Assembly (NCBI GenBank): GCA_030248065.1
Contig: JASAMV010008327.1
Coordinates: 1-64,000 of the forward strand
DNA from: Rhynchonema sp. JSB1_4
Taxonomy: Eukaryota > Nematoda > Chromadorea > Monhysterida > Xyalidae
Direction: 5' to 3'
Length of the DNA: 64,000 nt
Both the position numbers and the translations under genes were made by a program. The notes below the pieces were generated by a model. The model saw nothing but the letters and a program-made list of their open reading frames with translations. It did not search any database and was not told where the DNA came from. Every line of letters starts with the position of its first letter. Position 1 is the first letter of the stretch. Below are positions 1 to 64,000 of the stretch, piece after piece.

Positions 1-888
1 TGCAGCAAGAGAGAAATTATTTTCAGAAATTTGTATTGCCAGCCAACAACAAGTCTGCAAAAGACGCTTGTCGAAACAGACGAAAATCGCGGGCAACAAC
101 CAATATTTGCATAGAGCGCGCGTTTGAACACAAAACTGTATTATGTACGTTGTGTTATCATCAGTGCATTTTGGGTGTGGTCGGCGGACTGTGCACACTC
201 ACGCACGTACATACAGAGACACAGGATACGTCCGAAAGTTGGCCGTTTGTCACCCCGCTATGGGGAAGTCTCTCTTTTCATTTTTAATGTGTGGGGATCA
301 CCTTCGTTTATTGTAGATATATGTACAGTATGCATATGTTGTGAGACTGATGATCCCCTCCAACGGATCTCCTTGCGCGCATACAACACTCAAAAATGAT
401 CATGATAACTGATGATTAACCATTTTTGCTCGAACTGGGGTTTACTTGCGAAGATCTCAGGCGCGCACAAATTGTAGCAGTGCGCGTTTGTAGAATACAA
501 GAGCGTACACACAGTAACAGGGGATGGTTTACCCTAGAACGCCGCGAGAAAGTTTGCGCTTTCCAGCTCTCATATGACGTTATGTTTTGCATCGGAACTG
601 AAACCAAGTCCATGTTTCTGCACAAGATAAAAAGGCACGTGATGAAACAGAAGTGGTGATGCTCTACAGCTCTACTGCTGTTGATGGGTTACTGTGTTTA
701 TTATGCTTGTCTTTCAAAGAAAGTCATTTGTGTAGGATATGAAATGTGTGATAGCTACACTGGAACAAAAATTTATTGGCCAGGATGTTTATCACGTCTG
801 TTCAACACAGAGAGAGTTCATATCGTTTGCGGTTGACACTGAGGTTTAGGCTCCCATCCCAGTCCCAAAACATATCGCAAATCTATAG
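1..888. other. No gene recognised
   Basis: Short open frames occur on both strands, but none has a splice-consistent structure or a recognisable domain. I see no long repeat here. This is the left edge of an intergenic region that runs to the end of the serpin gene at 6467. Confidence 0.4.
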
Positions 889-1454
889 GTATTGGTCGCA
901 CGGTGACTTTATAAGAATTGCTCAATTTTTTTCCCTGAATCGTAAAGCGGGAACGTGACGGGACAGTGACGTTGCGTTGCGCAATCACACACAAGCATGC
1001 GGTCCACAAAATGTTCGAGAGGTGGCCGGGCAATTGAGCAAAGCACATTTGGGCAAGACCACTTTTGAGCAAGCAAAAAAGGGCAGAGCCAAAAGAGCAG
1101 AGCACATATTTAGTCCCAATGGCTTAGGCTTGAACTGATTTAGGTATCAGGCTTAGGCCTACACTTAGGCTTAGTTTTGAGTTTGGGCTTAGGCTTAGGC
1201 CTATTCGTTTTTAGATTCTGCTCGTTTGGCCTCTGCTCTTTTTCACTTGCGCAAAGTGGTCTTGCCCAAACGTGCTTTGCTCAATTGCCGTCCGCCGTTC
1301 CAGACCAGCAGCAACGTGAGTGCTATGCTGGATTATTTTCAGCTGAAAATGTTTTGTGAGAATCACAAATAGCACAGTGGTTAAGAGTGACTGAACGTGA
1401 AAATCAGGATTGATTTGACGAGTTTATATACGTGTGGCCGTTGTGTGGCCAATA
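889..1454. mobile_element. Family A inverted-repeat MITE, interrupted copy
   Basis: The left end reads GTATTGGTCGCAC and the right end is a diverged complement (GTGTGGCCAATAG). Internal sequence matches the intact copies at 1461-1740 and 14127-14404. A second element (1021-1296) is inserted in its middle. Confidence 0.7.
1021..1296. mobile_element. TTAGGC-carrying TIR element nested in a family A MITE
   Basis: The terminal inverted repeats are GGTGGCCGGGCAATTGAG and a diverged complement. They are flanked by an 8-bp near-duplication, GTTCGAGA (1013-1020) and GTTCCAGA (1297-1304). The core at about 1120-1205 holds degenerate TTAGGC units. Relatives lie at 21364-21908 and about 51041-51346. 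Confidence 0.7.
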
Positions 1455-1460
1455 GTACAG

Positions 1461-4923: not shown

Positions 4924-5116
4924 TAAAGGCAAACTACGCCAACACGAGCCCGATTTCGAAGGTGTGGTGTATTCAAAACGAATAGAAAGAGAAAACCATC
5001 ATGCTTCACTTTATATTCTTCAACGTGTAACACTTCCCAAATCAGCAGCCACGTCAGAATGTTTCACTATTCTGCCAGCTGCGAAATCGGGCTCGTGTTG
5101 GCGTAGTTTGCCTATA
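4924..5116. mobile_element. Family C MITE
   Basis: About 190 bp with inverted ends TAAAGGCAAACTACGCC and GGCGTAGTTTGCCTATA, extended by CAACACGAGCCCGATTTCG arms. It holds ATGTTTCA at about 5059. Three more copies are at 9863-10056, 36314-36506 and 47166-47355. Confidence 0.8.
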
Positions 5117-17546: not shown

Positions 17547-17569
17547 GCCGGTAGAAACTGCGTTCGAAA

Positions 17570-20500
17570 ATGGACGTCAACGTCAGCCGATCGGAGGCGT
17601 TGCTGCTGACGGTGCTGACGCCGGGAGAGTTGACGGCGATCACAAATCACTCGCGATCGCGGCTCGAAACTTTGATTCAACAATCCAAATTGTCGCACGT
17701 CGCATTATCGGCACAAAAAGTCGAATCGGAACAGCAGGTTTTCGAAGCCAAACAGCGACTGGATTCGATGCGGAATGAACTGGCGGCGGTGACGAAGAAA
17801 AACAGTGATTTGCAACGGCGATGCGAAAATTTGGGTGTGTGTTTTTTTATTTGGGAGTTTATCGTGCTGAGTTTGCCTGATGATATCAACAAAGATTGCA
17901 CTTATTTTCAGAAAAAGACCGAAACGAACGAATCCGATTGCTCCACGAATCGGAAAATGCGCGTGATGCCGCCGTGTGTGCTCAGGTTTGACTTGCGCGT
18001 AATTGAAGTGCAGTCTGTTTTTCCTCAAGAGACGAAGTTTACTCTGCGTTTGGTTGGGATCAAATTCCGCTCACGAAACGCTCATTTTCAGCACTCGGCC
18101 ACTCGCAAGCTTGAGGGCATGGAAAACGAAACGTCCAGTTTGGCTGATGTGGTCGCCAAAAAGAATGAATTCATCAAAACCCTTGAAGGTTGGCTCCTGT
18201 GGTCCTATTTGTGGCCAGGAATTTAGCTATTGTGGCTATGTGGAATGTGGCTATTTAATTTTTACGTTCTTTATTATTTTTTTCGCATTTCCACTCTTAA
18301 CCAGTCGATATACTCGTGTGTTTATCTTCTCTTGTCAGAGAACATCGAGCGGCTGAAGACCGAAATTCAAAAGATCAGCGCCGAAAAATCCGACGCGGAC
18401 ATGAAAGTGTTTGAGATTGACTCGCGCGAACGATTGTTGCAGGCAAGAAATAAAAACTTTTTTTTTCAATTTTTATACAATATTTATTCTTCGAGCACAT
18501 CTAAAAAAATAATCTTTTTCAGGCGCGCGAAGAGCGAATCAACAAAGAACTCGAAATGAGTGAAACATCGAAACGGTGGTACATGGAAGAGGTGGAACGG
18601 AAGGATCAGATAATCTATCAGGAGCGCAAGGAATCGGTTAGAATCGGCTGTTTTTCATTTTGATAGGTTTTCGGCACTTTTTACTTTTACTTTTTTTTGC
18701 GACTTCGCGTCAACAACATTTTGCGATCAAATATGTTGCTTTTTTTGGCGTGCTTGCAAAAGATTTTCGCATAGCTTGCGGAAGGTCGCAACCACTGGCT
18801 ATTGTTCTGTGCTCACAAAGCTGTTCGTAATCCAACATTTGTCTGGTTAATTGATTTTCGGTGGCCGTCGAAAACCCCGAAAAAAAAACCCCGAAACGGA
18901 AAACCCCGAAAAAAAACCCCGAAAATGAAAAACCCCGAAAATAAAACCCCGAAAACGAAAAACCCCGAAAAAAGCCCGAAAAATAAATAATGTCAGGGAT
19001 GAAAAAAAATCTTGTTAGAGGTGGGTATTCATGTCGCTCGTGACCCACGAGTGAAACATCACCCCTACACTATACTGGCAGGCGGAAAAAAACCGGTTTT
19101 TTTCCGGAAAAAAAACCGTTTTTTTTCCGAGACCCGAATACTTTTTCATTTATTTTTCCGTGGGTATCTTTTCGGTTTTTGATCGGAAAAATATCGGTAC
19201 TTTATCCCAAAGTTTCCAAAAAATTGTAATGCAAAACTGATGAGTTTTTCGATTTCAGTGAAAAATTGGCTCGAGCACAAAAATTAACCGACCCAAAATG
19301 GGCCAAAAAGCGTGTAAACCAAGTGTTTTCGACTGACTTCAACACTCTTCAAGAGCACTCTCGTCACTTCGAACAAATTTTGCACTGAAATTGTTATATT
19401 TTTCGAAATTACGTTCTTAAGACGGAAAAGATTTGGAAAAAAAAACGGTTTTTTTTCAAAAAAACCCCTTTTTCCCCCAAAAAAAAAAAAAACACCCTTC
19501 TTTAAAAAAAACCCTACACTTGATAAATTGGCTTCGGATCAGACTTCAACCTAGACTTGGGCTTAGGCTTGTTCATAGGCTTAGGCTTAGGCTACCAGCC
19601 AGGAAGACATGTCCACATGAAGGAAACATCCACAAATGTACAGCTGCACAGGCTTTCTTTCAGGGTTAGGCTTAGGCTTAGGCTGCCAGCCAGGAAGACC
19701 TGTCCATTTGAAGAAAACTTCCACAAAAACCTAACTGCTCAGGCTTTCCTTCAGGGGTAGGCTTAGGCCTAGGCTGCCAGCCAGGAAGACCTGGCCACAT
19801 GAAGACAACATCCACAAAAGTTTAACGGAATAGGCCTTCAATCAGGGTTAGGCTTAGGCTTAGGCTGCCAGCCAGGAAGACATGAACAAAGGAGAATTAC
19901 CTAACTTGTGCCCGAACTGTACCAGTGCCCATTTTTTGGTGCACGAACGACATGAATACCCTTCTCTAACCAAAAGAATTGTTTTCCACACATTTTATGT
20001 TTTTCGGGGTTTTTCGTTTTCGGGGTTTTTATTTTTCGGGGGTTTTTTCGGGGTTTTTTTTTCGGCGTTTTTTTTTTCGGGGTTTTTTTTCGGGGTTTTC
20101 GACCCCACCCTGATTTTCAGTCAACGAAAGCGCTGGAATTGCAAACCAAGATCGGAACGCTTGAACACGACGTCAGACTTCGTTCGTCCACTCTCGATGC
20201 GCAAAAAGAGCGCAATGTGCAGCTCGAGAAACAGTTACACGAATTGCAGGAGAAAATGCGCAATGTTCGCGACCGTTTTTTTCTTCTGTTCTGTTTTGTT
20301 TATTGATTTATTTTCCATTTTTTATTCAAAATGTCGACTTTCAGTTTGAACGCGAGCGCGCTGATCTGGTGCAAAACTACGAGGCTGAGCTTGAGTGTCA
20401 AAGGAAAGTCATTGAGACCAATGAGGTGACTTTTTCGTGTTCTCTTGCGTTTTAATGGTTTTTTTCATTTCGTGTCAAATTTTCAGACTAGCTTATACGA

Positions 20501-23500
20501 GGCCGAAGCCAAAGTGGATGAAGTGACCAAAACGCTCGAATCTTGTCGAACATTGCACCAGGAAAGCAAAGAGGGTTGGTATTTTTGCGCATGTTGTCCT
20601 GATCTAGTAAGCTTCTAATTTCGTTGCGTCACGCATTCTTACAGACGCAGGGAAACTCCCGTTCGAAGTCGAGGCAGGCAGCAAGCCACGCAGCTGATGA
20701 CACACACACAGCTTGTGTGACTGAAACATTCGAAACGCACACGAGCCAGCTGCGTGGCTTGTTGACTGCGTGCGCCTCGACTTCGAACGAGAGTTTCACT
20801 GCGTCTATAAAAATGCATGAGGCAACGAATTTAGAAATTTACTATACATGGCAAATTCGATGCCGTGATGCATTTATGTAACCAGTTTGATTTTTTTTCA
20901 GCTGTGGAAAGCATGCAGGCTGAACTGAACGAAACCAATGCCAAGCATGCTGAAGATCTCTGTGCCAAAGGTACGCTCATGGAGATTCATGTTCTGTGCT
21001 TTACCGCCTTTCTTGTGAAGCTTCAGCCATTTATATTGACTGGCAGAATGTTTCAGCGATAGACACTTTTGCGTGGCTGGCTGGCAGATGTTCGACTTTA
21101 TGTATAAAAAACGCTGAGTAATTATTTTCTTGCAGATGAGTCAATTGCCAAACTGCAAGATGAACTCAAGCACGCCAATGAACTGTTGTCTTCCAAACAT
21201 CGAGGTTGGGCGTTAACTAGATTTATCTTTGTTGTAAAGTGTCAGGCAACTAAGACAAAAATGTTCTGATGAATAACCTTAGTTCGATTCAGAATTACGA
21301 TTTTTAATTTCAATGTGTCTTGATTGACAAAAGCAACAATGTGCGAACCAACGGTGTATGGTAGACGGTCGGGCAAAGCACATTTGAGCAGGACCATTTT
21401 GAGCAGGTGAAAAAGAGCAGAGTCCAAAATGGCAGAATCTAAAGACGAGAAGGCCTTAGCCCAAGCCAAAGCCCAAACACAAAACTAATCTTAAGCCTAA
21501 TTATAAAAATGGAAAGGGACAGATAATATTATCATAGAGAAGACACCAAAAAAGGAGAGGAGAAAGGAAAAAAAAAGAAAAAAAAAAGAAAAAGAAAAAA
21601 AAGGAGAAAAAAAAAAAAAAAAGTAAAAAAAAAAAAAAAACAAAAAAACAAAAACCAAACCCCACCCAAAACAAAGAAAAAAAAAAACCAACCACACCAC
21701 TTCACCAAAAAAAAAAAAAAAAAATAACGAAAGAAGAAAAAATAACACAATAAACTCCAAAAGACAGCACCAAACAACCCCTCACACCCCCCCCTGATAA
21801 GCCTAAGCCTGATACCAAAATCAGGCTTAGCCAAAGCCACTGGAACAAAATAAGTGCCCTGCTCTTTTTCACTTGCTCAAATGCGCTTTGCTCAATTGCC
21901 CGGCCACCGTATGGTACGGTATAAGAACGCAACCAAATACGAACTGAAATAGCATTAAAATGGAATCGAACCGAAAATACGCTGTGTGAAACGCCTGTCA
22001 TGAAATAACAGAGAAGATGTTTCGTGTTTCACGTAAACTATGTTTTGCATCGTATTTGGCAATTAGTCCTTGATGGAGGGCGTCCTGACACCAAATAATC
22101 AATTTAAGTAATTAAAAGTGCTTCAGTGATGCTGTCGGACGATGAGATCGCTGAATTATCACCGGGCGCTGCTGCGGCTAGTCGGTTGATCAAACAAGGT
22201 TATCGCGAAAAACAAATTTTTTTATATTTTTTGAATTTTGTTTGAATTTATTATTGTTTTTTATATAGTTGTTCATTGTATATGCTTTATAGTTTATTTT
22301 TTCAAAATAGGCTAGCGGCAAGAACGTAGTGTAATGAAAACGGCTTGTAGCTTTGTTCTTCTGAAGTGCCAATTTATCAGCTTTTTGGCCTAAATGTATA
22401 ATTTTTGAGGGTTTGCGCCACTAAATTGGAAAATTTACTTGCCTTGTAAATAATTTAGCAGCTTAAAAACCTGCAAATTTGGTAAAAAAAAGATCTATGA
22501 CGCCAGGCATCACCCTGACGTCGATTTACCGCGAGCACGTGAAAGCAGTTGATGAGCTGCACGCGCAGAAAGCTGAGAACACACGACTGCAGAAGTATTT
22601 TAATGAACTGGTGCAGGTATGTATGGGCTATAGGGTTAGAGGTGTGGGTACCCGACACCCGACATCTGGAGACACCCGACACCTATAGTTTTTTCGGCAC
22701 CCGACACCCGACATCTCTCTAACCCTAAGGGCTACATTCATATTTTTATTTTGTGCTTTTTACTTCGTTCGACCAGTTTCGGTACATCTTGAGTGACCAT
22801 TCAAAATCAAATGCAAGTCGCGATTTTTATCGTTGTTTTCTTTCAACAGGACATCCAAAACAAAGCGCCGATCTTGCGCCAACAGAAACTCGACTATGAG
22901 CAAACGTTGGACATGTGTCAACGATTGAGACATCAGCTCGCCTGTGTGGATCGGGAGGAAAAGGTAAAATCAACTGAAATGATCGTTTGTTAAATTTTTG
23001 AAAATAAAATTTAAAACAAACATTTTCAGGAGCTGAAACTGACCAAAGACAACAGCGACCGAGAGTTGGCGTACACCAAGGCTGAACTGGAACGATATCA
23101 ACGCGACGTGAAGGACTTGAACAATCAGGTGATTGTTTGTGGATTGTTTTATGGATGTTTTTTATGTTTGTGAACGGGTCAAGTGCGATAAGATATCCCA
23201 GGAGGGGGCTGAACTCAGCGAGTTGCAAGATGCCAGATACCTACTCCAAATGGTCGAAAAAAAGGATGTTTTTGCGTGCATTTTCAGTGCAAGAATCGGC
23301 AGAATGCAGGCCCAGCAACAAAAACGGCTATTTTTTGTGTATATGTTTTCGCGGTCGGGCAGGGCATCCGAGGTCGAAAAACAACCATTTCCCCCATAGA
23401 AATCATAAATATACTGGTGCAAGATGACATGATGCATGATTGATACCCTTTGGCGGTGGCATGGCAGCCCCCAGGCACTACACTGGTCTTTGCTGAACTT

Positions 23501-41500: not shown

Positions 41501-44500
41501 CCGAACCTAATTATTCTTGCAGCCGTTGCGTCATCGCAGGACGAGACAGCCGATAACTTGGCAGCTGCAGCTGAAATGAGCGGCTACAACATCATTCGGC
41601 AGCTCGACCGCGCCACAGCTGCGGCAAGGGCAGTGGTTAATGTTCAAGGGGCTAGTGTCCCTGATCATCAAGGCGAAGACGACGGGGATGTGATACAAGT
41701 GGGCGATGAATCGGATGATGAAACATTAGCTGTCGACGATGGACAACAGCAGGGCGTCGTTATTGTCGGCCAGGAGGAAGTGGGTTGATGATTGTAATGT
41801 TGTCAATATTTTTTTCGATGAGGCTCAGAAATAGTATGTGTTCTTGTTGTCGTGTTCGGTTGAAGCAGCCGTAGTCTAACATATCAGGCGACCAATAACT
41901 TTTCTGAGTTAAGAAGGCAGTGTTTTTCATATTTCTGCAGAAAGCTATGGCAGAAGCAAAGCGCAGGCGGAAAGTTCTACGCGTCGTTTTCGAGTGAAAC
42001 ATCAGCGGTCAAGCCGTTGAAAAACGTCTGATTTGAACATTGAACACCCACTGAGCAACATCAAACTGTCCAACGAGACCATAAAGTTGGAAAAGTTACC
42101 GTTTTTTTATACTTATATCATTTGCAGGACGAAAGTGACAACGAGCCGGAGATGCTCGACGAGGAAATGGATGCGGGCGGTGGTCAGGGGGGCGACGGAA
42201 TGTACGACGATCTGGATCTTTTGCCTGAACAACAACAACAGGTTGGGGTATTGGAGAGGGGGGGGGGGGGGTTAGACGAATTGTGAACGATAGGCGTTGC
42301 AGGTTTATTGCGCAATGTTTGCAAGTTTTTATTAGTTTCACAATTGATTTGGCAATATCGGTTGACAAGGGCGGATCTAGGGAGCAAGTTTTGGTGCATT
42401 TCAGAAAGAAAAGAAAAAAGGACACCCTAAATCGCAGAATTTTACCCTGAATACCTAAAAAAAACCCAGAAATCGCGAGATTCAAGATTAAAAAACCTTC
42501 AATATTCTCACTGTCATATTTTGTATGCCATTTAGTTTAAAAATCGCCAAATTCGAAACAAGCATTGAATAAAAGCGACTTCAAAAAACGGGACATGTAC
42601 CAGAAAAAATGACTTGATGACTAATTTGGTCCCTCCCCTTGGCCAAATGCTGGATCCATCACTGTTCCTTGATAATGATCTTTTATCTTGGTTGAGGCTT
42701 TACAAAACTGATTGGAGCAACGGAGTTGAGAACGACCATAGTGAAGTTCGGAAACATTTCTTAGCGACGAACGAGATTTATGCAACTTGCTGAATCTGTG
42801 ATAAGAGAATAAAAAAATAAAATTTCATAGGCCGACGATGACATCGACGTTCTACAATTGCAAGAGGGCGTCAGAGGCGGGCAGCAGGGCGACAATTATG
42901 ATCAGATTCCCAGCGGTTGGTTGTGTTTTAGTTTTGTTGTTGTTTCTTCGAGATTCGTAGCTTCAGATTGTCACAGACGGCACCGGCCACGGAGGTCATT
43001 CTCACGTGAAACATCAGCCTATGATCGTTTGCTGCGATCTGACTTTGGATCTCAATGAAATTATACAAATGCTGTTATGATTTTGGATAAAGTGTGCGCT
43101 TTTTTCTCCTGCAGATCTACAAGCATACGGCGGTATTGCAATTCCGGCGCTCAATCCCGACTTTGACCAGCCGCAGGGATACATGGGCGATCAGCAGATG
43201 TTGGATGTGACGCCCGCTTCCGGTATGTGTGTGCAGGATAATTTTCTCTTGATTTTTGTAATTGTTTTATTTGTGATTCTTTTTCAGCAGTTGAGAGCGC
43301 GTTGTGCATTTAGTTACAAATTGGCTGTCCAGAGTAACCACAGTAATGCACGCAGCCTATATTCATACTGTATTCATTCGTGGTTATCATGCCCATTGTT
43401 TGTTGCTATTATTTAGCCGTAATATTTTTGCCCCGAACTAAGCAAACAAACAGCAATATATTATCACATTGCACAATGTCACGCACAGGTGCAGCAGCGC
43501 AGCAAGATTTCGTGTCAGCGAGTGGACAGGGGGACAGTGAAGTGCCAACAGCACCGAGTTACATGCGCAGCGCATTCGCACGACCCGGCCAGGCCGCATC
43601 TGCGTCGGTCACCTATTTGGAAGGGTTGGTTGTTGGGTTTTTTTTCGCATTTTTGTTGTTTAATGGCGATTGAGAGGCGATCTTGAATAATCAAGGCTTT
43701 GCTTTTTCAATTCTTCGATTTGTCATTGCCACGGTTCTGATCAGCGTGTTGATGGTTGCTTTGATCATAAATGTTTCACCATCACTATAAATTCCGGCTA
43801 AAGAGTGACGACCCGCAATTACCCCTTTTTCTTCAACAGGTGAAAACATGACCGCCCAAAAATCAAAATAGAATTCGAAATAAAAACGAATGCGACAAGG
43901 TTTTTTCACTGCTTCTGCATCACTGTGAGAAACCAAAACCGAACTATTCGTTGTCACACATAACAGTTGCATATCGACATGCAATTTTTCTCAATTATTT
44001 ATTGTGGCAAGTTAATCATGCTCAAATCGACAAGTAATCTAGTTGCCTGTCGGGTTGCCTGACAAAAATTCGGTTTGCCAATGTCAAGCGGCCTTGTAAA
44101 ATTAAAAAATAACCCTGATTTGAGCAAAAATAAATAGCAATCAAATGTTTCAGGTCGCAAATGCCGCAGAGCAGCGGAATGGGCGGCTTCCAAGCCGCGA
44201 GTACTTTTGGTGAGACAATCTGTTGATTTTCGGCTAATTCTAATGCAGTTGACGCACGTCGAGTCGCACATAGTCGTCCTCGTCGCAGGCAGAAATGATC
44301 TCAAGAAATACATAGATTATTCATGAGTTTCGTCGACGACATTAGAATTAGCCCGAATTTCTTTCATGTCCTGTTTTTTCTCTGGCATAAATTTGATAAC
44401 ACATATTAAATTATCAAGGGAGCTGTTTTGCACTAGTCTTTCTTTGTCGCAGGTGGTTTCGGCCGTCAACGTGGTCCCGAGTGGAGCATTGTGTCGTCGG

Positions 44501-47500
44501 AACAACCACCCGAAGTTGTGCTAGGTCAGAAATCGGGATTTCGGTTTTGTTTGTTTTATTTGTGGGTTTTGCGTGACATCAATCACGTTTAAAGTGTTGC
44601 GCTCGGGAACAAGATACCGGCTTGAACCTGTGATGTGCTAATGCGTGACAGCAGAATTCCATACTTTGCGTGATTCTGTAAGTGCTGTTGGTGGCACTAA
44701 TCGACCTAAACAAACAGCAATATAAATAAAAATCGGGGGAATCGATTCCCGAAATATTAGGCGAACTATTCTTGAGACAGTTCTGACGAGCATTCCCTAA
44801 AACGCTATGATATTCTTCAAAATTATCACCAATTGGCGCATCAAATAAGTTTGTGGGGTGGCTGATGTTTCACTTGGCAATGACCCAGGATGTCGACCGA
44901 GCGCTGCTCACTAACTGGATCATAAGCTGCAATTAAATAAAATAAAAATAAAAACCAATCACAAAGCACAAAGTAACCATCAAGTCAAAGTCAATAACGT
45001 TTTTTTATAATCCACGCTCAGATACGGACAGCAACGAGGCCACATCCAGCACGCAGCCATCAGCCGTCGTGCCGAATGATGATGATGAGGTGGTGATGCC
45101 ACATGTTGCACAGGTTGGAATGGGGGTGAGGAGATTGTGTCCGTCAGTTGGAATTGTCTGATGTTTGTCGATCATTTGAGCCTTTTGTTGGTAAAATGTG
45201 CCGTCGATGTTTGGCGAGAACTAAGCGCTTGCCTGGACATTGCTGGAACAGGTGATTCAGTTCATTCCCGGCTGTAACATCCACCAGCCAGCCGTCTAAG
45301 TGTGTGTATTTGTGGACCTATATGTACATAGTTGTATTGTTGCTGCAAACGCTTATCTGAATCTTGCTCCAAGCGTGGGCTATACAGTCTAGACTCTTTA
45401 TAGTGACGTGATCATGAGCGATTATTTTCTGTCTCCCTATAAAGAATATCTACTGTATAGAGGAGTGTATGGCAAATACGAAGTTGAAGATGGATCGGGA
45501 ACCAAGATAGCGTAGAAAAATATGAAGGGTTGCGCTATAAAGAGTGTCACGATGAAGGGTGTACACCATATGTGGAACAACTAAAGTATAACACAATGAA
45601 ACATCAGTGCTCTGCTGCTGCGAAGATTATCTTACAGGACGAACCAGCGTTCGCAATGTTGGGCGAGGGACAGGTGGAGGATGTGAATCTGGATGAAGGA
45701 GATGAGGAGGAGGAGGAGGATGCAGGTTGGTGATGTTTCACTCGATGCACGTAATATCGTTATACTCGGCACAACTACTATTTAGTGCACAACATTGCGT
45801 GGTGCCATTATTTGTAGCTGCTCCGAAACATCTTTGAGTCCAAGAGTGATCAACTTGTTATAGTTTTGTTCAACGAAGCACATTTGGCTTGTCGTGTTTG
45901 ATTCGTTGTCAATACGCGTTGTTATTGTGTGTCAAGCCAAGCTCAATGATGTGGTCTGGCCAGCAGCATTCGCACTGACGATGACCTGGTGCACGCTTGG
46001 TCTGTGAAAACTGGCAGAAACAGACGTACAGCCAAAAGAGACACGCTGGATAATTCACATTGTCTTCAATTACTCAATAACGTGATGTGTTCTGAAAAAA
46101 CACATATCTTCAATCCTTACCTAATCCCATCACCGAGTTTCATACGCTCCCAAACCTATCCAACCTGATGTTTCACTCCATCTATATAAATGCAGATGAC
46201 GATGACGAAGACGAGAGTGACGTGGACGACGGAGCTGGCGAGGAGGCGGAGTTGGCGATGCGCTCGCGGCTGTTGGAACAATTGGGCAGGGGCCGGGCGT
46301 TGGGACAACAATCCGGCGATGAACAAGGGTACGGGATTTGGGCGGGGGGGGGGGGGTGGGGGGGGGGTAAAAAAAGAAAAAAGGAACAAAAAAAAAAAAA
46401 AAAAACAAACCAAAAAAAAAAAAAACACAAAAAAAAACACCCAAACAACAACAACCACCCAAAAAAAATTCTCCCCCCCCCCCCAACTCAGAGGGCGCAT
46501 ATTGGGATCAGTCCATATTGTCAACAGTCCAGAACAGATGGTGGGTGGAGCACAAACCCCCCACAAACCCGGGTGTCGACAACAATAGATTTGGGCTTAG
46601 GCGTCAATATTGTTTGGGATGGCGCTTTATTTGTGCGTAAATCGCCAGCTATGCGATACCTGATTGACTGTGGCGGTTTGTATTATGGCACACAATGTGT
46701 GCCATATAAAGTCGTCAGTGTGATAATCATAACGCCAATTTCATCTTTTGTTTTGGTTTCCATTCTCACGCTGAATCTGCAGATTTAGGGAAGTTCACAT
46801 AAAACTTGTTTTCCCCGTTGCAGCAGTGACGGTGAGGCAGGTGCAGCGAGCAGCGCAGCCACAACAACGACCGCTACAGTACCGGCCACAAGTACGAGCA
46901 CGGGCAGCAGAGGTGCGGCTTTGTGGGCGTTTTTATTTTCAAATTTTTCCAATATTTTGTCACCGAATGCACCTGGTATTTCTGCGGATGCAGCAACTTT
47001 GACGCTTGTTCCAATCCCAATATGCGCAAGAATATAATTTTGGTAGTAGCTGTTTTGAAGTTTCAGTCTTGTTTTCTGATGATTCATCGCTAGATGACCC
47101 TCGGTGTTGATTTTCGACAGGGCTGAAAATTGTAGGCCTGAGGCCGTAAAATAACGATATATTTGTACAGGCAAACTGCACCAACACGAGCCCGATTTCG
47201 AAGGTGGCGTGTATTCAAAACGAATAGAAACAGAAAATCATGCTCCATTTTGTAGTCTTCAACGTGTAACATTTCCCAAATCAGCAGCCACGTTTGAATG
47301 TTTCACTATTCTGCCTGCTGCGAAATCGAGCTCATGTAGACGTAGTTTGCCTTTACATAAATTACACTCTCATTTCAAATATTGCAGTGATCAAACTGAA
47401 CATAGTGAGCAGTGGTGGTGAGCCGAGTGGAACATCAGCGGGCACGAGTGCGTCAACGTCAACTGGTGGGCAAGCAGCCACGGCAACACGCGGTGGTCGG

Positions 47501-47608: not shown

Positions 47609-48080
47609 TTGCACTGGGTGAAATGTGGAATTTTTGATAAATTTGCTAAGCCTGAGTTGAAGTAGCTCTGTGTTTTGAAAGTGTTTTTTGCTGTGTAGTT
47701 TATTCTAAGGGGAAGTGTATCAGATCATTGATCAGTACTCCATGTCATTGAACATAGCTAGTGCATGAAACATTTTTGTCCCAATGGTGTACACATCAGC
47801 TGGATATCAATGAATGAATTGCTTCACTGAAATATCCACAACACCTGGTGATTTTCGGATTATTTCGGATTGTTGTACTTTTTTAGTCTCATTTATATGT
47901 AAATCATAATTGTGCAGTTATGTTAAAGTATAAGTATGAACTGAGGTTACTAGTTGTGTTTCTTGTTGCGCCTGTTACTGCGTTATTCACATACAATCCG
48001 GGTTGACATTGATTGTTTTTCTCATGATTTACTTATCTAATTGTGCTGCATGTTTGTTTCATTGTTTCTTACTGTCAATG

Positions 48081-48212: not shown

Positions 48213-48236
48213 TACATCCCCACATCATCCCCGCAA

Positions 48237-50985
48237 ATGAGCGATCAGGCAGCTTCCGATCCGAGTCCCCCTGACGTCCCGGGATCGAGCGAGCCAGCAT
48301 CCAGCAGTGCACAAGGCGAGTCAACGGCAGCAACCCAACAGCGACCGGAACCCGCCGGCAGTGGGGCTGAGGCGGTGGAAGACCCGAGACTGCCGAATCC
48401 GTTGGCTGCCGAATGCGCTCGCAGCTCGTTGTTGGTGAACCTTGGTGACTCGAATACTGCCCAGGTGCGGGGGAATTGGTGTTGAGGTTGTTTTATGGTT
48501 TGGTCGAGCGAAATTATGATAGTATGTTGTGAATTAGTCTTGGTGCTTACACTTTGAAATGTTATTCGATGCAGCAGCTGTAACTTGTGAGCTGGCTATT
48601 TGCCTCGTTCGACATTGTAATTTTCGGCTTGTGGCTGCAAAATTTGCTGCTGTTTCAGCCGAGATAGGCTTGCCATGGTGCTCATAATTGCGATAGTATG
48701 TGCGGTTGTGTGTGACATCCGAAAGCATTTGAAATAAAAACCTAGATCATAAAGATTATTGTTTTTGTCCAGCAGACCAGCAGCACAACAACCGGCCCGG
48801 TACCGTCCCCGCCCCGCCAACCCGGCGACGGACAGGAATCGAGCACAGTTCGAACTCCCGGTCTCGGTCCGGTTCGGTCTCAGCCAGCTGCTGCGCCCGG
48901 ACCCGTACCAGGAACTGGGTTGTTCTCGAACGCAACGCCTACAGATCCACCGGTTGGAAATTATTGTGTTTAGTTGGTCGTGCTGCTTTGTCTATCGTGC
49001 GGCAGATCGATGACCACACGACGGCAGTTCAGTGAAAGATGTCATTTAGACGTGAAACATCAGCTGAATGCACGCGGCAAAGTATTGAGTGTGCTGATTT
49101 TATTGACAACTTCAAAGTGACAGTTTCCTCATGAATGTGCGGGGGGAAGGCCCCCCCCAGGTACAATAGGTAGGTTGACGCTCCATCCTGGTACAGAAGG
49201 CAGGTCGGCGCCCCCGGCTGGTCTGTAGGTTGCGATTTTTGGCTCGAAATGGTATAAAATCGGTGTTTTTTCACTCCAAATAGGCGAAAAAATGGCGCGC
49301 TATGCGCGAAATGATCGTTTCTGAGTACATTTTCATCAAAATTTAGACTTAAAAATGTTGTTCCCCCTAGCTTGGCCGGCACAGTGGGTAGGTTGCAGCC
49401 CCACATTTTTGCTGGTACAGTAGGTTGCCGCCCCGCCTGGGTAACTACATCACTGATGTGCACATTTAGCCCGGCTCGAAATGTTTACTTTGCTGGTTTT
49501 TTTATAGGCTGCTTTCTGTTTGTCCATTTCTGCCTATCATTGTCGCACGTTCGCAGATCGCAGAGGTCATTCTCGCGTGAAACATCAGTTCTCACGTCAG
49601 AATACCGAAAGTAACTTCAAAACAACATGTATTTTGCATCCAATTTACTCGCACAGCCATACGATTCATCGCAATCGCGTTGGAAACCGAACGCCGACCA
49701 TTTGGACGCCATCGTGTCGTTCGGATTCAGCCGCGCGGCAGGCGAGCGCGCCTTGTTTCACACGAATAATAGGTGGGGGATTATGTCTAGTTTTTTATCT
49801 GTTTTTTGTATGTAAACTTCATTCAGCTGATGGAATTGGGAAATGTGACCAACTATTCGCGAAATTTTTTCCAAAATATGCTCGTTTCGCGTATTTCAAC
49901 GTTTGTTTATCTGAGTACGTATGAACATTTGAGGTGTTTGTTCTGATTCTTTTTTTGGCTTTTCGAATACTGCACATTATCGGCAGATTGCGTCTTGAAG
50001 TTTCTCCAGGGCAGTCGTTCTCACGTGAAACATCAGTCGCGTAACCGACATAATAGCACAACAGACGTGTGACACACAAAAGTTGACGATTTGCATTTTG
50101 ATTTTCCATGACGTTCCTTCATCTTTCCTCGTGTCCCTACACGACCTAATGTTTCATTCAGATCAGCAGACGAAGCTGTTGGCTGGCTGTTGGACAACCC
50201 GGAAGTGGCTGACGATCCAAGACCGATTGAGGCGGAGGCTGCAGCTGGTATGGTTTTATCAATTTTCCTTTTTTTCGGTGTTTTTAGCTTTCATTAAACA
50301 ACCACTGAAGTGATCACGCACGACGTGTATTTATGGACGAAAGTTAGTATTTAGCAATGATGTTCCAAACATTACAAAAGTGTGCGTCATCTGAAAATGT
50401 TTCGCTGGTAGAATTTGGTGTGGCTTGAAGTTTTCATGCTCCAATTACTGTGGCGCCTCCTGTGTGTAATAAAAGTTTGAAAAAAAATAGTAAACAAAAA
50501 AACATTCATGATATGACACTGTCCAACACTAAATGCTGCCCGTTCTTTCAGGTCTAGATTCATCGAGCGGTGATTCGGAGTCGGACCTGGCCGAAGAGTA
50601 CCGCGAAATGTTGTCCAACACTGCGTTGACGTACAAGATGAGCCTGGTGGTCAACAACGCTCTCAAAATGGGCGTGGGCAAAGTGGCCGCGCAATGCGGC
50701 CATGCCACCCTGGGGCTGTATCGGAAAGTGCTCGACTCGGGGGAGTCCGGGGCGGCGGCTCTGACCGCCTGGGACATGGCAGGGGAGCCGAAAGTTGTGC
50801 TCAAAGTCGATAATGACGTGGAACTGGGGAAATTGTCGGAATTGGCCCGCTCGGCGACGCTACCGCATTATTTGGTGCATGACGCCGGCCGGACACAAAT
50901 TGCGGCGGGTTCGGCTACCGTACTTTCGCTGTTTGGGCCCGCAGATAAAGTCGACGAGATCACTAGCAAATTGCAGTTGTTGTGA
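48237..50985 (+). CDS. PTRH2: UBA-domain peptidyl-tRNA hydrolase 2
   Basis: Five exons: 48237-48464, 48773-48952, 49657-49772, 50162-50247, 50552-50985, giving 347 aa with all phases closing. Residues 1-136 are a low-complexity Pro/Ser/Gln-rich N-terminus. Residues about 150-191 form a UBA domain (LDAIVSFGFSRAAGERAL, then EAVGWLLDN). Residues about 231-347 are a complete PTH2 domain with LKMGVGKVAAQCGHA, the conserved HDAGRTQIAAGS and a C-terminal helix. The enzyme frees peptides from prematurely released peptidyl-tRNA, and the UBA suggests ubiquitin binding (family knowledge). The vertebrate N-terminal membrane anchor is absent. Exon 2 has a tandem CAGCAG acceptor. It follows TPR on the same strand with a short spacer. 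Confidence 0.95.
49041..49060 (-). promoter_or_regulatory. ATGTTTCA-N7-ATGAC motif
   Basis: Minus-strand core at 49060-49053, ATGAC after seven bases. PTRH2 intron 2. Confidence 0.35.
49137..49455. mobile_element. hAT-like MITE, left end truncated
   Basis: The right end is GTAACTACATCACTG followed by ATGTGCAC. On the left, ATGTGC joins directly to GGGGGG, so the left terminal repeat looks lost. The body shares GTAGGTTGCCGCCCCGC with 31684-31939 and 16317-16725. PTRH2 intron 2. Confidence 0.6.
49566..49585 (-). promoter_or_regulatory. ATGTTTCA-N7-ATGAC motif
   Basis: Minus-strand core at 49585-49578, spacer CGCGAGA, ATGAC. PTRH2 intron 2. Confidence 0.35.
50014..50033 (-). promoter_or_regulatory. 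ATGTTTCA-N7-ACGAC motif
   Basis: Minus-strand core at 50033-50026, spacer CGTGAGA, ACGAC. PTRH2 intron 3. Confidence 0.35.
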
Positions 50986-52545: not shown

Positions 52546-52566
52546 ATTGTCGACCACCAGCCAAGA

Positions 52567-55500
52567 ATGAAAGTTGCGGCAAATCTCACTTTTATGTTTC
52601 ATGAGGCTGGTGGACTTCTGGCCAGGTTGGCCATATTTTTATTTTCCACGTTTGGTTTCTGGCTCTGACCTATAGTGGCAGGCGGAAAAAAACCGGTTTT
52701 TCGAGAAAAAAACTGAAAAAACCGTTTTTTTTCGAGACCCGAATACTTTTCCATTTATTTTTCCGTGGGTACCTTTTCGGTTTTTGATCGGAAAAATATC
52801 GGTACTTTATTCCAGTTTTTTTCCAAAAAATTGTAATGCAAAATCGATTAGTTTTTCGATTTCAGTGAAAAATTGGCTCGAGCACAAAATTAACCGGCCT
52901 AAAATGGGCCAAAAAGCGTGTAAACCAAGTGTTTTCGACTGACTTCAACACTCTTCAAGAGCACTCTCGTCACTTCGTTTTTTTTTTCACCAAAAATAAA
53001 AAACGGTTCTTTATGACAGTATACTCTGGCCAGTTGGTAAATGTTTCGCAGTATTCGTATACGTGATTGAAACAATCGCCCTAGTCGGTTGTTTGAATCT
53101 TGGCGGATTAAATCGTGAAATAAACCGTGTCGACAAACAAAACCGTAACCGAACGCGAATTTCAGATACGAAGCGGCCGCGGCTGCTGGTTTTCGGCACG
53201 TTGAGTGTGCATATCCGTACAGCGAATCGGCGCAAGCCTGCAGTGAGGTGTTGGATAGATGTGGCCTGGATCAAGTGTTGATCAATGCACCACCCGGTCG
53301 GTGAGAGAGTGGTGTCCATAAATTCAGCGACAATAATGCACGATTGTGAATGTTTGTTGGATTCGTCTTGCTGATGTTTCACGCGAGAATGACTACGTGA
53401 CATTTCGCAATGTCTGCACTAATCATCGTAGTTGACAGAAGACTAATAACGACAACCAACAAAAAATGAATAACAATTACATAATACCTAAATGTGACTA
53501 GCATTATTGTGAGCCGAATTGTTTTGTGATTGGTGTCCACCCCATATGGACATTATGCATCGAATAGGATATCTGAGAAAAATAAACAACAGGAACATGT
53601 TGTTTTGGCTGATGTTTCACTCGAGATAGACTTGACGCAGTTTGTTTTTGCCACACTATTTGAGCTTCTTTTTACAGCCGAAATAAAGAACAAATCATGC
53701 AAACGAAATAATCACAACAGTAAATATTATTTTCAGGTCCACCAGAGACGGGCGGCGTGGGCCTGGCGTGTCTGCCCAACAAACGCGCTGAGTTCGAGGA
53801 CAGCATCAAATTAGCAATCGAATATGCAAAAGCGCTCAGATGCCCGCGGTTGGGCAGGGTTTTTTTTTCAAAATTCACTAGGTGCAACTTAGGTGCAACC
53901 CCCCAATTTTTAGGTGCAAGCTGGCCAAAGTAGGTGCAACCCCTATTTTGGACAAAAAAATGCCAATTTTTTTGCCAGGTTGTGTGTTCAATGCTATTTG
54001 CGTGCTTTTAGAAGTTCAATAAAGTTGTAACGCAATGAATGCCTTTTCCTTTAGCAAAAGCAAACTTTTCAGGGAAAGTTCAACATTTTGGAGCACATTT
54101 TGTACTAGTTTCATTATTGAGAACCGATTGAGAAGAAAACGAAACAGTAAAATTTTCATGTCACCATATCCACATTTGGGGTCACGCACGAATCAATTAC
54201 TTTCGCTGTTCATTTACTGTGTGGGTATCTAATACTGTTGTCATGTTCTGCTCTAGTTCTAGTCAGTGTAGTTCCTGGGGGGAGGGGGTCCCCTCCTAAG
54301 GTACACTAACCGCCGCGACCAAGGTACACTAACCGCCGCACCAGGTACACTAACCGCCGCAATTTTTGCCTAAAATAGGCATTTTTAGCCCAAGATGGGC
54401 ATTTTAGGCCTAAAATGGGTAATTTTCAGGTCAATGTTGTCAAAAGTCGCCAAAATACCCTATTTATGGAGAATTTTTTCCAAAAAAGGGCAAAAATAGG
54501 TCGAATTTTTTATCTCAAAGAAGGACTTTTTCCTGAATTTTGGTCTTCCCCCCTCCTTCCCCCCACAGGGAGCAGGGAGGTACACTAACCGCCGCACCGA
54601 CAAAGTGGGTAGGTTCACTAACCGCCTCGCCGGACCAGGAACTACACTGATCCTAGTACAGCATGTATTTGTTTTGAATCTTATCACCAGCACACCAGGT
54701 ACTAACTGTGTACGAAATCAATCAATCAGATCAATATTTTTTGTCGATGTCGACCAAATGCTTCGATGGAATTTATTGGAAGGAATGAAAAGCCGCGCAG
54801 CGCATTTTTTTGTTTCTAAGCTTTCCAACCTTAAAAGATGCTGTATAAATGCTAAATTAAGCAAATAAGGGCCCAAAATTTTAGGTGCAACCTTGCACCT
54901 AACCCTGAATTTTTAGGTGCAATTCTGATTTTTTAGGTGCAAATTGCACCTAAAAAGTGTCTAAAAAAAACTATGCGGTTGGGAATGTTTTTTTGGATTT
55001 TTTTTTGTTTCGAATGAAGTTTGGTAACACCGTCGTGCGCAGCTGAAATATTTTCGCTTTTGTTTGGTTCACTTGCACAACATCAGAAACGTTTTGCACG
55101 TTTTCAACACAAATGGTCCTAACTTTCACATTTCGTTCGTTTCATGTTGCAGCATTCACGTTATGGCTGGCAGAGCGCCCGGCGATGTTTTGCGAGAGGC
55201 CGCTGAACAACGGTATTTGGAAAGTATCAGATTTGCGGCCGAGACAATGCAAAAGGTGAGATTGTTATTCTGTTTTTGCATTTGGGAAATGTCAAAGCTT
55301 TTGTTATCGCAATCAAAATATTCTGCCACTTTTTTAGGAGGGCATTACGTGTCTGATCGAGCCGATCAATTCTTACTCTGTTCCGGGATATTTTCTCTTC
55401 TCCTATGATCAAGGTGACCTTTTGGTTTATTCATGCGATAATTTTCTTCTCGTTTTATTATTATTTTTTTCTTGATCTGTAGCTATGAGTATCATTACGT

Positions 55501-56846
55501 TTCCACACGGCTGTGTTTCTTATTTAGCAGACGCGACACATTTGCCAGCCTGACGTTCACCTAATTTTGCTTGTGTTGTGCCACAAACGTCGTGTGATAA
55601 CAAAATCATCAAACCCCTTATTCAGCCGTCAACTACATTCAAAAGCTGAATCTGCCCAACTTGAAGTTGCAATTGGTGAGCGATTTATTCGTTGTTTCTT
55701 TTATCCAAATGATCTGAACATTCTGCGCTGCATGAAAATTCGGCGATGAAAATGTTCTGTAGCTGTTGCTATATATATATGATTTGTCTATGATTTAGGT
55801 TTGCGATCGCGCGCGTTCCACTTGAAATTGACATTGAAAGAAAACTCAACTGAAATGTGTCCCAGCATATGTTCACAAATGTTTGCATTTACTTAGTTTT
55901 CAGGACATTTTCCACTTGCAACTGATCTGTGGGGACTTGACTAATCGAATCAGCTCATTGTTCCCGTACATCGGTCAGTACTTTTATTGATGATTGGATA
56001 TTTTCTGTTCATCAAGATCAAAGTCTAGTTCTCCGACTAATTTATTGGTCCACGTGCGTGGTTGTTACGATTGATGATAAACAAATGCAATGCCCTCCTG
56101 TTATCATGCCCATTTGGTCGCGTGTCACGCACGAGACAGATATTGCCCCAGGACCGGGGATGCACCAGAAAATCGTCAGTGCGAATGGTTCGAATGGTCA
56201 CGTAACCTAAAGATAACGATAATCTGATTGATGAAAGTGACTATGCTGATTTTTCAGGTCACATCCAAGTGGCACAACCGCCCTATGACGAACGGCACGA
56301 GCCAGATGCCGCCGGAGAGATCAATTATGCGCATGTGTTTGCGCTGCTCAGGTCGAAAGGTTCGGTGTTCATTGATTTGCTTGTTTCGTGTTTATGTGTG
56401 CGAGTTTATCGTGTAAAGTCAACATCACTCTACCGTTATTGTTCGCTGCCTAGTTATTCGGCGGTGAAACATCAGCTTCAGATCAGTTCAAATGCCGACT
56501 TGAGAAAGTTCGCAGCTCATTTCAGTTCAGTTCACTTTTTATTGGTGTTTACCCTGGACATACAGTATGGAATAACGTAACAATGTGTCACGCACGACAC
56601 CAAAGATGCAATGCGAATGTTCGAAGTTGATGTTTCACTCGCTCACGACTAGAGCGTGTTAGAAATTGCTCGCCGATGAATCATTTATCTGCGTATTGAA
56701 ATTCATTAAAAATTGAAAAACACCGTAATTTACGTCAAACAATATTCACAGGTTATGACGGCTTCATTGGTGGTGAGTACAAACCGAAAACCACGACCGA
56801 AGCCGGATTAGGGTGGATCACGAAATATGGACTGGAACTGAAGTGA
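52567..56846 (+). CDS. HYI: Hydroxypyruvate isomerase (HYI family)
   Basis: Nine exons: 52567-52625, 53166-53296, 53737-53848, 55153-55255, 55338-55413, 55626-55675, 55904-55973, 56258-56359, 56752-56846, giving 265 aa with phases closing. It is a TIM-barrel sugar isomerase of the AP-endonuclease-2 fold and should interconvert hydroxypyruvate and tartronate semialdehyde. Seen: AANLTFMF start, AGFRHVECAYPY, LINAPPG, AIEYAKALRCPRIHVMAGR, LIEPINSY, LQLDIFHLQ, GHIQVAQPPYDER and GGEYKPK. The metal-binding Glu, Asp, Gln/His and Glu positions are therefore all present. The first exon was chosen because its phase-2 donor joins exon 2 exactly and matches the family's N-terminus. Intron 3 holds a transposon inserted across the exon-3 splice donor. 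The family function in nematodes (gip-1) is still loosely defined. Confidence 0.93.
52677..53025. mobile_element. 300-bp dispersed repeat (copy 2), HYI intron 1
   Basis: GGCAGGCGGAAAAAAACCGG to GAGCACTCTCGTCACTTCG matches 19077-19372 closely. The right end (GGTTCTTTATGACAGTATA) matches the short element at 40727-40795. Confidence 0.8.
53374..53393 (+). promoter_or_regulatory. ATGTTTCA-N7-ATGAC motif
   Basis: Core, spacer CGCGAGA, then ATGAC. HYI intron 2. Confidence 0.35.
53612..53631 (+). promoter_or_regulatory. ATGTTTCA-N7-TAGAC motif
   Basis: Core, spacer CTCGAGA, then TAGAC. HYI intron 2, 118 bp before exon 3. Confidence 0.33.
53855..54975. mobile_element. hAT-like element inserted at the HYI exon 3 splice donor
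   Basis: Flanked by exact 8-bp duplications CGGTTGGG (53847-53854, 54976-54983). The left end is CAGGGTTTTTTTT and the right end AAAAAACTATG. AGGTGCAA units lie inside both ends. The left duplication spans the last two bases of exon 3 and the first six of the intron. A second element (54264-54649) is nested within. Confidence 0.85.
54264..54649. mobile_element. Nested hAT-like MITE (CAGTGTAGTTCC ends)
   Basis: The ends are CAGTGTAGTTCCTGG and CCAGGAACTACACTG, with imperfect duplication GTTCTAGT/ATCCTAGT. GGTACACTAACCGCCGC units repeat near both ends. Confidence 0.75.
56452..56472 (-). promoter_or_regulatory. ATGTTTCA-N7-ATAACT motif
   Basis: Minus-strand core at 56472-56465, ATAACT after seven bases. 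HYI intron 8. Confidence 0.3.
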
Positions 56847-62600: not shown

Positions 62601-63338
62601 ACATTTGCGTCACTTGCGAATCTAAGTTAGAACGTTAAAGTGTTTTCTCAAATTTTTAGCTCTCTTGACCAGCACAAGCATTATGTTCGTTAACCTCCGA
62701 CCGATATTCTAGCCAACTGTTGCCAATCATAGTGTCCTTCTGATGTTTCATCGTAGTACATCACGGTGTAGATCGGTTTACCGTCACGACCGTCGTGAAA
62801 CTCATGACGATTTCCATTCGGGTCTGGTAGTTTTGGTAAAATGCAATTTGCTTGCACCCAGTACGTAAGCTTGTATCGGATACCTTTATATTTCGCGTTC
62901 TTGAGGTAGCGCATCAGCAGTTCAGACTTGTGGTCCTGGGTAAGCTCGTCCTTCATACGGTTGCAATAGACACCGCAGCTATGTTTACAGTACGTGCTGT
63001 GAATTGTCTTGAGCGCCTCGGCGTACGCAGACACCGCTTCAAACACCTGTGGACGTCTTTTTATGAATGATTATTCAAAATATGCGTTAGAAAATGTAAC
63101 AACAGTCATAAGAAACAACACGTACAAAATGAGCAAATCCCAATTCCCAGTCGCGAATGGTTTTGTTGTGCGTTGATTTGTCCACCGGTTTCAATTCATT
63201 CCAAAAGTCGCCGAACCACGGATTCTCTGTGACCGAGACACTTTCATTCGTCAAGCCGACAAAGTGCTTCTCGAACTCGGGCCACGGCTGGTATTCGGGT
63301 CCGAGCAGTAGCGACCCGATTACAGCGTTGTGTAAATC
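59624..63338 (-). CDS. Metabotropic glutamate-type class C GPCR (3' part; 5' end beyond window)
   Basis: Minus-strand exons: 63338-63126, 63046-62695, 62621-62516, 62363-62201, 62142-61989, 61879-61759, 61686-61533, 61207-61022, 60778-60545 (or 60543), then tentative tail exons 60191-59824 and 59763-59624 (stop TAG). The first two encode the end of the Venus-flytrap ligand domain (NPWFGDFWNE, KPIYTVMYYDE). The next two encode the cysteine-rich linker (SRCGEPCQEGYVRR, CCWSCVQC, CDLCDQ). The rest encode the seven-helix domain: TPIIKAAGRELLTVLLFG, FVKTKRIVRIFHISKR, MVSPVSQVAITV, ARKMPGQFNETRYI, CMFAPKWYIVL. These are mGluR hallmarks. Glutamate coupling to G proteins at the plasma membrane is expected from the family. 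The intron after 62516 has a GC donor. The C-terminal tail is the weakest part: a donor 2 nt further on is needed to keep its frame. Confidence 0.87.
62514..62515 (-). other. GC splice donor in the mGluR gene
   Basis: Exon end GTGAGAAG followed by GCGAGT. Joining to the TGCAG acceptor at 62364-62368 gives an uninterrupted cysteine-rich domain. Confidence 0.7.
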
Positions 63339-64000
63339 CTGTAAATCAGGCCGTTGATCGCAACTACAAGCAAGATCGCATCAAACAACCGTGATCGGCC
63401 ACCAGTTGTCCGATCTGGGCTTTTTGGTCATGCATGGGGTGGCATTTTCGAAACGGTGTAAAGCTCAGTTGGGTGTAAAGGTCGGTGTAAGTTCGGTCGA
63501 AAGCTCGGTCGGTGTCGGCTCGGTGTAAACATGAAACATTCCACGTTAACAGCAGGCAATGTTTCATGTTTACACCGAGCTGACACCGACCGAGCTTTCG
63601 ATTGAGCTTACATCGACCTTTACACCCAACTCACCTTTACACCGTTTCGAAAATATCACCCATGGTCACCGTAAGAGATGGGTTCGCTCTCAAAAAATTG
63701 GTTTCGCTCGCTCAATGAGCGATGAGCGAAGAGCGAAATTCTATAGATCAGCTTCGCTCTTTTGCTCTTTTTCGCTGTCAGAAACCGCGCTCCATTTTGG
63801 TTTGAGGTTGTTTTTAGCTGCCCTAAACCTGGTAATGATCAAATTTATGGTATTATTTCATTAAATTTCAGCTTTTTGCCGACTTGTGACAACATGAGCA
63901 GAAAATCTGAAAGCATGGTGGACGGGATGCTTATTTCAGCACCACAAACAGGATGAACAATAGAGTGAAATTCAAAACTGGCTTTGCTCGCTCTTCGCCC
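63339..64000. other. mGluR intron with a palindromic MITE
   Basis: It contains the palindrome 63433-63664 and GCTCGCTC/GAGCGAAGAGCG stretches near the right edge. Upstream mGluR exons must lie beyond 64000. Confidence 0.4.
63433..63664. mobile_element. Palindromic MITE with central motif pair
   Basis: The ends CATGGGGTG and CACCCATG enclose ATTTTCGAAACGGTGTAAAG-type arms with CGGTGTAA units. TGAAACAT (about 63531) and ATGTTTCA (about 63558) face each other at the centre. Confidence 0.75.

Follow-up and report, generated by a model that had tools for sequence, protein, structure and literature searches.

Predicted intronic piRNA genes with a U1-type promoter core in a contig of the nematode Rhynchonema sp. 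JSB1_4

The window analysed here, i.e., the 64,000 nucleotides at positions 1 to 64,000 (forward strand) of contig JASAMV010008327.1 (assembly GCA_030248065.1) of the nematode Rhynchonema sp. JSB1_4, is rich in an 8-base word, ATGTTTCA, that is also found upstream of the U1 small nuclear RNA (snRNA) genes of the same genome. Twenty-eight short units of the window, built on this U1-type core or a near variant of it, are predicted to be intronic RNA polymerase II (Pol II) genes for PIWI-interacting RNAs (piRNAs), a reading to which we give a probability of roughly three in four (0.76). The units occupy a 32-kb stretch at 24.8–56.6 kb and comprise 12 of class A, which carry the full U1-type element, and 16 of class B (Table 1). 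Their cores are ATGTTTCA in 20 units, ATGTTTCG in five, CTGTTTCA in two and ATGTTTCC in one, and each core is followed by a YRNT start signal with its T at +45 to +48 (the A of the word being position 0) and by an A-rich block at +65 to +100. The units thus share a core, a fixed spacing and an A-rich, T-poor block; they lie on both strands, their downstream sequences are unrelated, and the genome carries a gene of the PIWI clade.

The Word as Core of the U1 Promoter

The genome contains ten matches to U1 snRNA, and the upstream sequences of the best nine were examined. Seven of the nine carry ATGTTTCA, with its A 42–43 bases before the first base of U1. In six of these seven, AAYGAC follows the word after a gap of six bases; in the seventh (L057, C3984:12055-12277), TATAAAG stands in place of AAYGAC, as in class B units. 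The remaining two of the nine have neither arrangement. The U1-type element is replaced by GCTGATGCTACAGG and GATAAAA in both full-length U6 genes. Judged by these positions, ATGTTTCA is the core of the proximal sequence element of U1 in this genome, and its resemblance to CTGTTTCA is not due to chance. In animals, the proximal sequence element is the site bound by the SNAPc complex, which would be expected to bind it in this genome as well. Exons resembling SNAPC1 were identified on three contigs (C5596, C4861 and C2656). C. elegans is described as having a special SNAPC1, SNPC-1.3, that serves male piRNAs (PMC7884074); the three contigs may be a parallel to this sex-specific protein.

The word occurs 27 times, and its reverse complement TGAAACAT 32 times, in the window (GC content 43.4%). 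The resulting 59 copies agree with the about 58 counted in an earlier note on this DNA, and the over-representation described there stands, although a dinucleotide model gives an expectation of about 6 instead of the two that the note had derived from equal base use. Of the 26 start positions that it quoted, 19 are exact, six are off by 1–2 bases and one (11650) is off by 7. The zone that it had named as densest, 36,000–50,000, does hold 23 copies vs. 36 in the other 50 kb, and CTGTTTCA, which it had placed near 28375 and 33705, was found at 28376 and 33704 among seven occurrences in all (three on the plus and four on the minus strand). Among the strand-merged 8-mers of the window ATGTTTCA ranks eighth, with all seven above it being A runs or near-runs, and it is the sole non-simple 8-mer in the top ten when the window is combined with a 200-kb sample of five other contigs (264 kb). 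This sample has 123 copies, a number that is biased upward since its contigs were picked among those listed with the 12-mer CTGATGTTTCAC. A genome-wide count of CTGATGTTTCAC gave 7,773 copies in 203.9 Mb, vs. 23 for the backwards-read control, i.e., an excess of about 340-fold. Across 179 copies of the word, no position between -40 and -5 is conserved.

Class A Units

The matrix for class A was built solely from five distinct U1 elements. At 16 bits or more, it identified 13 sites in the window, 2 in the 200 kb elsewhere and 0 in one shuffled window; at 14 bits or more, the window has 14 sites, 12 of which lie at 39–57 kb. All of the latter 12, and neither of the other two, have a YRNT whose T falls at one of the positions +46, +47 and +48, compared to a mean of 2.3 for all three-wide windows and a per-site chance of 0.206; the site 44865+, weak at 14.2 bits, was kept among them. 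In the resulting twelve class A units, A makes up 50–62% of each five-base block from +65 to +99, where T is scarce, and the A-rich block begins about 19 bases past the predicted U. None of the class A units has a TATA, and no extra motif is evident upstream of GCTG in the twelve.

The class A pattern has 102 matches in the genome and 0 when read backwards. Seven matches are in the window, which holds more of them than any other contig among the 100 places listed of the 102. The rules for start offset and A-rich block, which had been set on the window, were then applied to 34 listed places on other contigs, taken as 20 and then 14 in roughly list order with some skipped, and hence a non-random sample. 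A YRNT with T at +46 to +48 was present at 27 of the 34 sites (18/20 and 9/14; chance about 0.206 each), or at 26 of 33 if L085 and L086, near-copies that were seen by eye and missed by the ungapped comparison, are counted once. At 21 of the 34 sites (12/20 and 9/14), A reached at least 42% in +65 to +100, compared to 9.4% of random window positions.

Class B Units

Class B has AATGTTTC, often with a TATA-like site at +15, and is otherwise laid out as class A. Where an A precedes the word, the start offset is again the same (19 of 51 copies, vs. 10.2), and a TATA at +15 is in excess among the sites outside class A (10 of 177, vs. 0.5 per position). The 16 units were chosen by judgement from 34 rows (650-, 22017+, 31078+, 38794-, 41412- and 45831- were left out); seven of them have an altered first or last letter of the word, and two, 26821- and 29441-, have the T at +45, outside +46 to +48. 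Their leave-one-out scores span 14.5–29.6. With the cut-off set at 18, the class B model finds 18 sites in the window, all at 24–57 kb, compared to 8 in the 200 kb elsewhere and 0 in three Markov versions of the window. Eight places in the genome match a strict class B pattern exactly; two of them are in the window (cores 25103 and 43771), and five of the six elsewhere carry the start signal.

Genomic Location and a PIWI Protein

None of the 28 units overlaps a predicted exon; 26 lie between exons and two just past the last one. Eleven units are sense and 17 antisense. In the window, 21 of the 59 word copies have both the start signal and the A-rich block, vs. 5.1 at shifted offsets (maximum 10).

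PIWI-domain exons were found on 17 contigs, some of which are near-copies. The gene on contig C1663 is PIWI-like, with 124 bits to Siwi vs. 61 to human Ago2, and an Argonaute on C802 has the opposite preference, scoring Ago2 above Siwi. The best match of the C1663 model (471 amino acids) is 40% identical, and the next three, from clade V nematodes, are 34–37% identical. In a tree, the C1663 model, one unnamed protein and six clade V nematode PIWIs form a group with support of 100/100, in which the first two sit beside the six and not among them, and the C1663 branch is long. By this sequence comparison, the genome has an Argonaute of the PIWI clade, grouped with the PIWIs of nematodes. Outside clade V, PIWI has been reported in plectids only (Beltran et al., 2019; PMC6436959). 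Contigs C1663, C3368 and C4595 have matching sets of PIWI-domain exons (that of C1663 was read).

If the units are piRNA genes, SNAPc would bind the core, in class A jointly with AAYGAC and in some class B units jointly with the TATA-like site. Transcription by Pol II would begin at the YRNT purine, which precedes the U by two bases, and the polymerase would pause and stop in the A-rich block. A capped precursor of about 28 nt would then be trimmed to a 21-nt RNA with a 5' U and loaded into PIWI, and the host genes may supply open chromatin, as proposed for Pristionchus.

Weighing the piRNA Reading

Several observations weigh against this interpretation. Thirty-nine of the 59 window copies lie outside the listed units and lack their layout, and at 61 fresh sites picked mostly for CTGATGTTTCAC, a YRNT at +46 to +49 was found in 13, vs. 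a mean of 16 at other offsets. In the 200-kb sample, both signals are present in 5 of 120 copies, vs. 2.6 expected (maximum 4). Two window sites with good U1 scores, 19059- and 29699-, have no YRNT start signal and were dropped from class A. Among the 34 class A sites elsewhere, seven have no start signal and 13 (8/20 and 5/14) fall below 42% A in the block, which is also found at just two of the six strict class B sites elsewhere. Class B is not independent evidence, because the start signal and the A-rich block helped to select its units and therefore cannot be tested on them. Finally, the exons and introns come from our own coding model, which was seeded with Argonaute exons of this genome and is not an annotation.

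The proposal of the earlier note that the copies may be dozens of dispersed intronic piRNA genes accordingly finds support in the 28 units, which take up 20 of the 59 copies, and none in the other 39. The spacing of core, YRNT and A-rich block, the 27 of 34 sites elsewhere, the lack of exon overlap and the PIWI gene speak for its piRNA interpretation; the 61 fresh sites do not. Given that the start signal is absent from these sites, it belongs to classes A and B and not to the bare word. A start signal at all copies had been considered, based on a five-wide sum at +48 of 102 vs. 63 in a mixed set of 179, and was rejected for the same absence. Most CTGATGTTTCAC copies do not continue into the second half of the U1 element (the full class A pattern has 102 matches, vs. 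7,773), TG-type copies outside class A are without the A-rich block, and most of the 7,773 probably lack both start signal and A-rich block. In Pristionchus, just 20% of the motifs in active domains accompany detected 21U-RNAs (PMC6436959), so that a large silent reserve of cores has a precedent.

Copies of the word keep out of predicted coding sequence, and no preference for one strand or for splice sites is clear. A role as a splicing element was also considered, as some CTGATGTTTCAC copies lie at intron ends (L029), and was rejected because 131 predicted introns contain 21 sense vs. 17 antisense copies and because the copies have no fixed place relative to exons in the window and the 200-kb sample. 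Pairs of copies less than 100 bp apart diverge more often than expected (12 vs. 4.5), for which bidirectional promoters were considered.

Among the alternatives, the one that survives best, though unlikely, is that the units are other SNAPc-driven small RNA genes, such as snRNA variants, spliced leader (SL) RNAs or short non-coding RNAs of an unknown kind. In its favor, class A carries the element of the U1 genes, the loci need not feed PIWI just because the genome has a PIWI gene, and the RNAs of the about 28 units are predicted only. However, the downstream sequences of the units have little in common beyond A-rich runs (and a few matches of 12–16 bases) and are not unusually foldable (mean fold z -0.09), an Rfam search of the window gave no match, and the A-rich block, about 19 bases past the predicted U, comes too early for a product of snRNA size.

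It is very unlikely that the class B units are RNA polymerase III (Pol III) genes of the U6 type. Such genes would have a TATA beside the core; TATA is in excess at +15, as described above, and in P. sambesii TATA is described as confined to Pol III snRNA genes (PMC6436959). However, TTTT, a Pol III stop, occurs among the first 26 bases of the transcripts predicted for 6 of the 28 units, five of which are class B; the U6 genes of this genome use a different element, and the U1 gene L057 also combines the core with a TATA.

Hardly credible is the explanation that the excess stems from repeat families and that the start signal owes its fixed place to copying or chance: sequence shared with another flank in 69 of 179 flanks, several window copies within repeats and the near-copies L085/L086, one pair among the 34 test sites, do favor it, but the downstream sequences of the 28 units are unrelated, and 27 of 34 other sites (26 of 33 with near-copies counted once) conformed to the rule that had been set on the window. 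A few repeat families, which the earlier note had named as a possible cause of the excess, thus account for part of it, but hardly for the 28 units. One repeat of about 200 bases, dispersed over the window at 4924-5125, 9863-10064, 36314-36515 and 47163-47364, contains AATGTTTCAC in every copy and contributes to the excess.

Comparison with Known Systems

As piRNA genes, the units would work like the Plectus and Pristionchus systems, and would differ from the described plectid promoter in the order of the two halves and in having a TATA class. In the motif-dependent piRNA genes of Plectus sambesii and P. murrayi, the piRNA and snRNA promoters are nearly identical and have a GTTTC core, PIWI is present outside clade V, and the organisation in P. 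sambesii is unclustered (PMC6436959), all of which resemble what is found here. As described in the text of that paper, the Plectus core is flanked 5' by an extra motif, whereas here the second half, AAYGAC, lies 3' and no 5' motif was found; Plectus piRNA loci are described as having no TATA, as is true of class A but not of some class B units (PMC6436959). The GC content of P. murrayi is given as 43.6% (PMC8022722), next to 43.4% in the window. The best COX1 match of this genome is 76% identical; among the best 120 matches, those carrying an organism name come from a wide range of ecdysozoans at 62–65% identity. For SL1, there was no Rfam match among the 50 of 52,251 candidates scored, and the SL1 splice pattern gave 0. 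The family PF23278 gave no match anywhere, the controls included, which makes this negative uninformative.

Like the P-type loci of Pristionchus pacificus, the units are predicted to lie in introns of expressed-type genes on both strands (26 of 28 between predicted exons) and have downstream an A-rich block that corresponds to the strong low-melting block there; unlike class A, which keeps the whole U1 element, Pristionchus uses the core half only (PMC6436959). Of the Pristionchus piRNA loci within genes, 97% are intronic, with sense and antisense about equal (PMC6436959). In a P-type organisation, the host genes would be germline-active and marked by H3K36me3.

With the type I 21U-RNA genes of C. 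elegans, the units share the GTTTCA core, the YRNT start and, as predicted, the 5' U and a start two bases upstream of it. A GTTTC core about 40–47 bases upstream of the 5' U, as in type I genes, is matched by the 46–48 bases from the A of the core to the T of YRNT (12/14 in the window and 27/34 elsewhere). The low-melting block has its counterpart in the A content at +65 to +100 (21/34 elsewhere), judged by percentage of A and not by melting temperature. The PIWI gene and the YRNT start are likewise present, the latter not at bare CTGATGTTTCAC. C. elegans differs in its CTGTTTCA core without a second half and in its super-clusters in H3K27me3 chromatin on chromosome IV (PMC6436959).

The closest likeness in element and start distance is to the U1 promoters of the same genome, where the A of the word is at -42/-43, compared to a YRNT purine at about +44 to +46 in the units. 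Class A thus has a U1-type element at -43, as expected of Pol II snRNA genes, but U1 genes have a conserved transcript, whereas the units have unrelated sequences, no conserved structured transcript and an early A-rich block.

By the current view, the promoter of nematode piRNA genes was borrowed from snRNA genes. In this genome, the piRNA-like units and the U1 genes have a nearly identical element in common; its second half can give way to a TATA-like site, which would represent an intermediate step in the history from snRNA to piRNA promoter. The units also amount to 28 exact predictions of 21-nt RNAs, 5' ends included, and suggest that DNA sequence is sufficient to locate such genes. Taken together, a nematode outside Rhabditina might run piRNA genes on the unmodified U1 promoter, the AAYGAC and TATA classes, which would coexist in the same introns, might represent two piRNA programmes, and the bare CTGATGTTTCAC cores might be a reservoir; this combined reading is speculative and on balance doubtful. 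The two programmes, in which AAYGAC and TATA occupy equivalent positions about 30 bases upstream of the start, could correspond, e.g., to two sexes or two SNAPc versions, and would be distinguishable from DNA alone. New piRNA genes would arise from bare CTGATGTTTCAC once a start and an A-rich stop evolve.

Host Genes and Surroundings

The coding model yields a chain of plus-strand exons reaching 56.4 kb, from which three host genes were predicted (Table 1). No listed unit occurs before 24.8 kb, though TPR exons start at 17.5 kb.

Table 1. Predicted units and host genes of the window (window positions; 21-mers are predictions).
Feature	Span	Strand	Core	Predicted 21-mer	Remarks
Class B unit	24838..24941	+	24841	24887-24907	
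Class B unit	25100..25203	+	25103	25149-25169	TATA +15; strict class B pattern
Class B unit	26721..26824	-	26821	26756-26776	CTGTTTCA; YRNT T +45
Class B unit	27573..27676	-	27673	27605-27625	
Class B unit	29341..29444	-	29441	29376-29396	ATGTTTCG; YRNT T +45 and +49
Class B unit	29753..29856	-	29853	29785-29805	
Class B unit	32459..32562	-	32559	32492-32512	
Class B unit	32853..32956	-	32953	32887-32907	
Class B unit	35600..35703	-	35700	35633-35653	ATGTTTCG
Class A unit	39213..39316	-	39313	39247-39267	U1-type element
Class B unit	40144..40247	-	40244	40177-40197	
Class B unit	41167..41270	+	41170	41218-41238	ATGTTTCG; lowest leave-one-out score, 14.5
Class A unit	41902..42005	-	42002	41935-41955	
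Class B unit	42657..42760	-	42757	42691-42711	ATGTTTCC
Class A unit	42914..43017	-	43014	42947-42967	
Class B unit	43768..43871	+	43771	43819-43839	TATA +15; strict class B pattern
Class A unit	44862..44965	+	44865	44912-44932	14.2 bits, lowest kept
Class B unit	47673..47776	-	47773	47707-47727	
Class A unit	48647..48750	+	48650	48697-48717	CTGTTTCA
Class A unit	48960..49063	-	49060	48993-49013	
Class A unit	49485..49588	-	49585	49519-49539	
Class A unit	49933..50036	-	50033	49967-49987	
Class B unit	50394..50497	+	50397	50445-50465	ATGTTTCG
Class B unit	53038..53141	+	53041	53089-53109	ATGTTTCG
Class A unit	53371..53474	+	53374	53420-53440	Top U1-element match, 35.7 bits
Class A unit	53609..53712	+	53612	53660-53680	
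Class A unit	56372..56475	-	56472	56404-56424	Directly past last predicted exon
Class A unit	56627..56730	+	56630	56677-56697	
Predicted host gene, TPR nucleoporin	17555..46329	+			PF25785; borders approximate
Predicted host gene, peptidyl-tRNA hydrolase 2 (PTH2)	48213..50907	+			PF01981; 5' border uncertain
Predicted host gene, xylose-isomerase-like TIM barrel	53224..56379	+			PF01261; borders approximate

The gene region is flanked by an inverted repeat of 450 bases, 96% alike, at 7219-7668 and 58550-58999, 51 kb apart. Arrays of GCTTAG (TTAGGC-like), which resemble the nematode telomere repeat, lie inside the contig at 15931-15986 and 19576-19881. Minus-strand open reading frames at 8668-10454 read like what are presumably pieces of a serpin.

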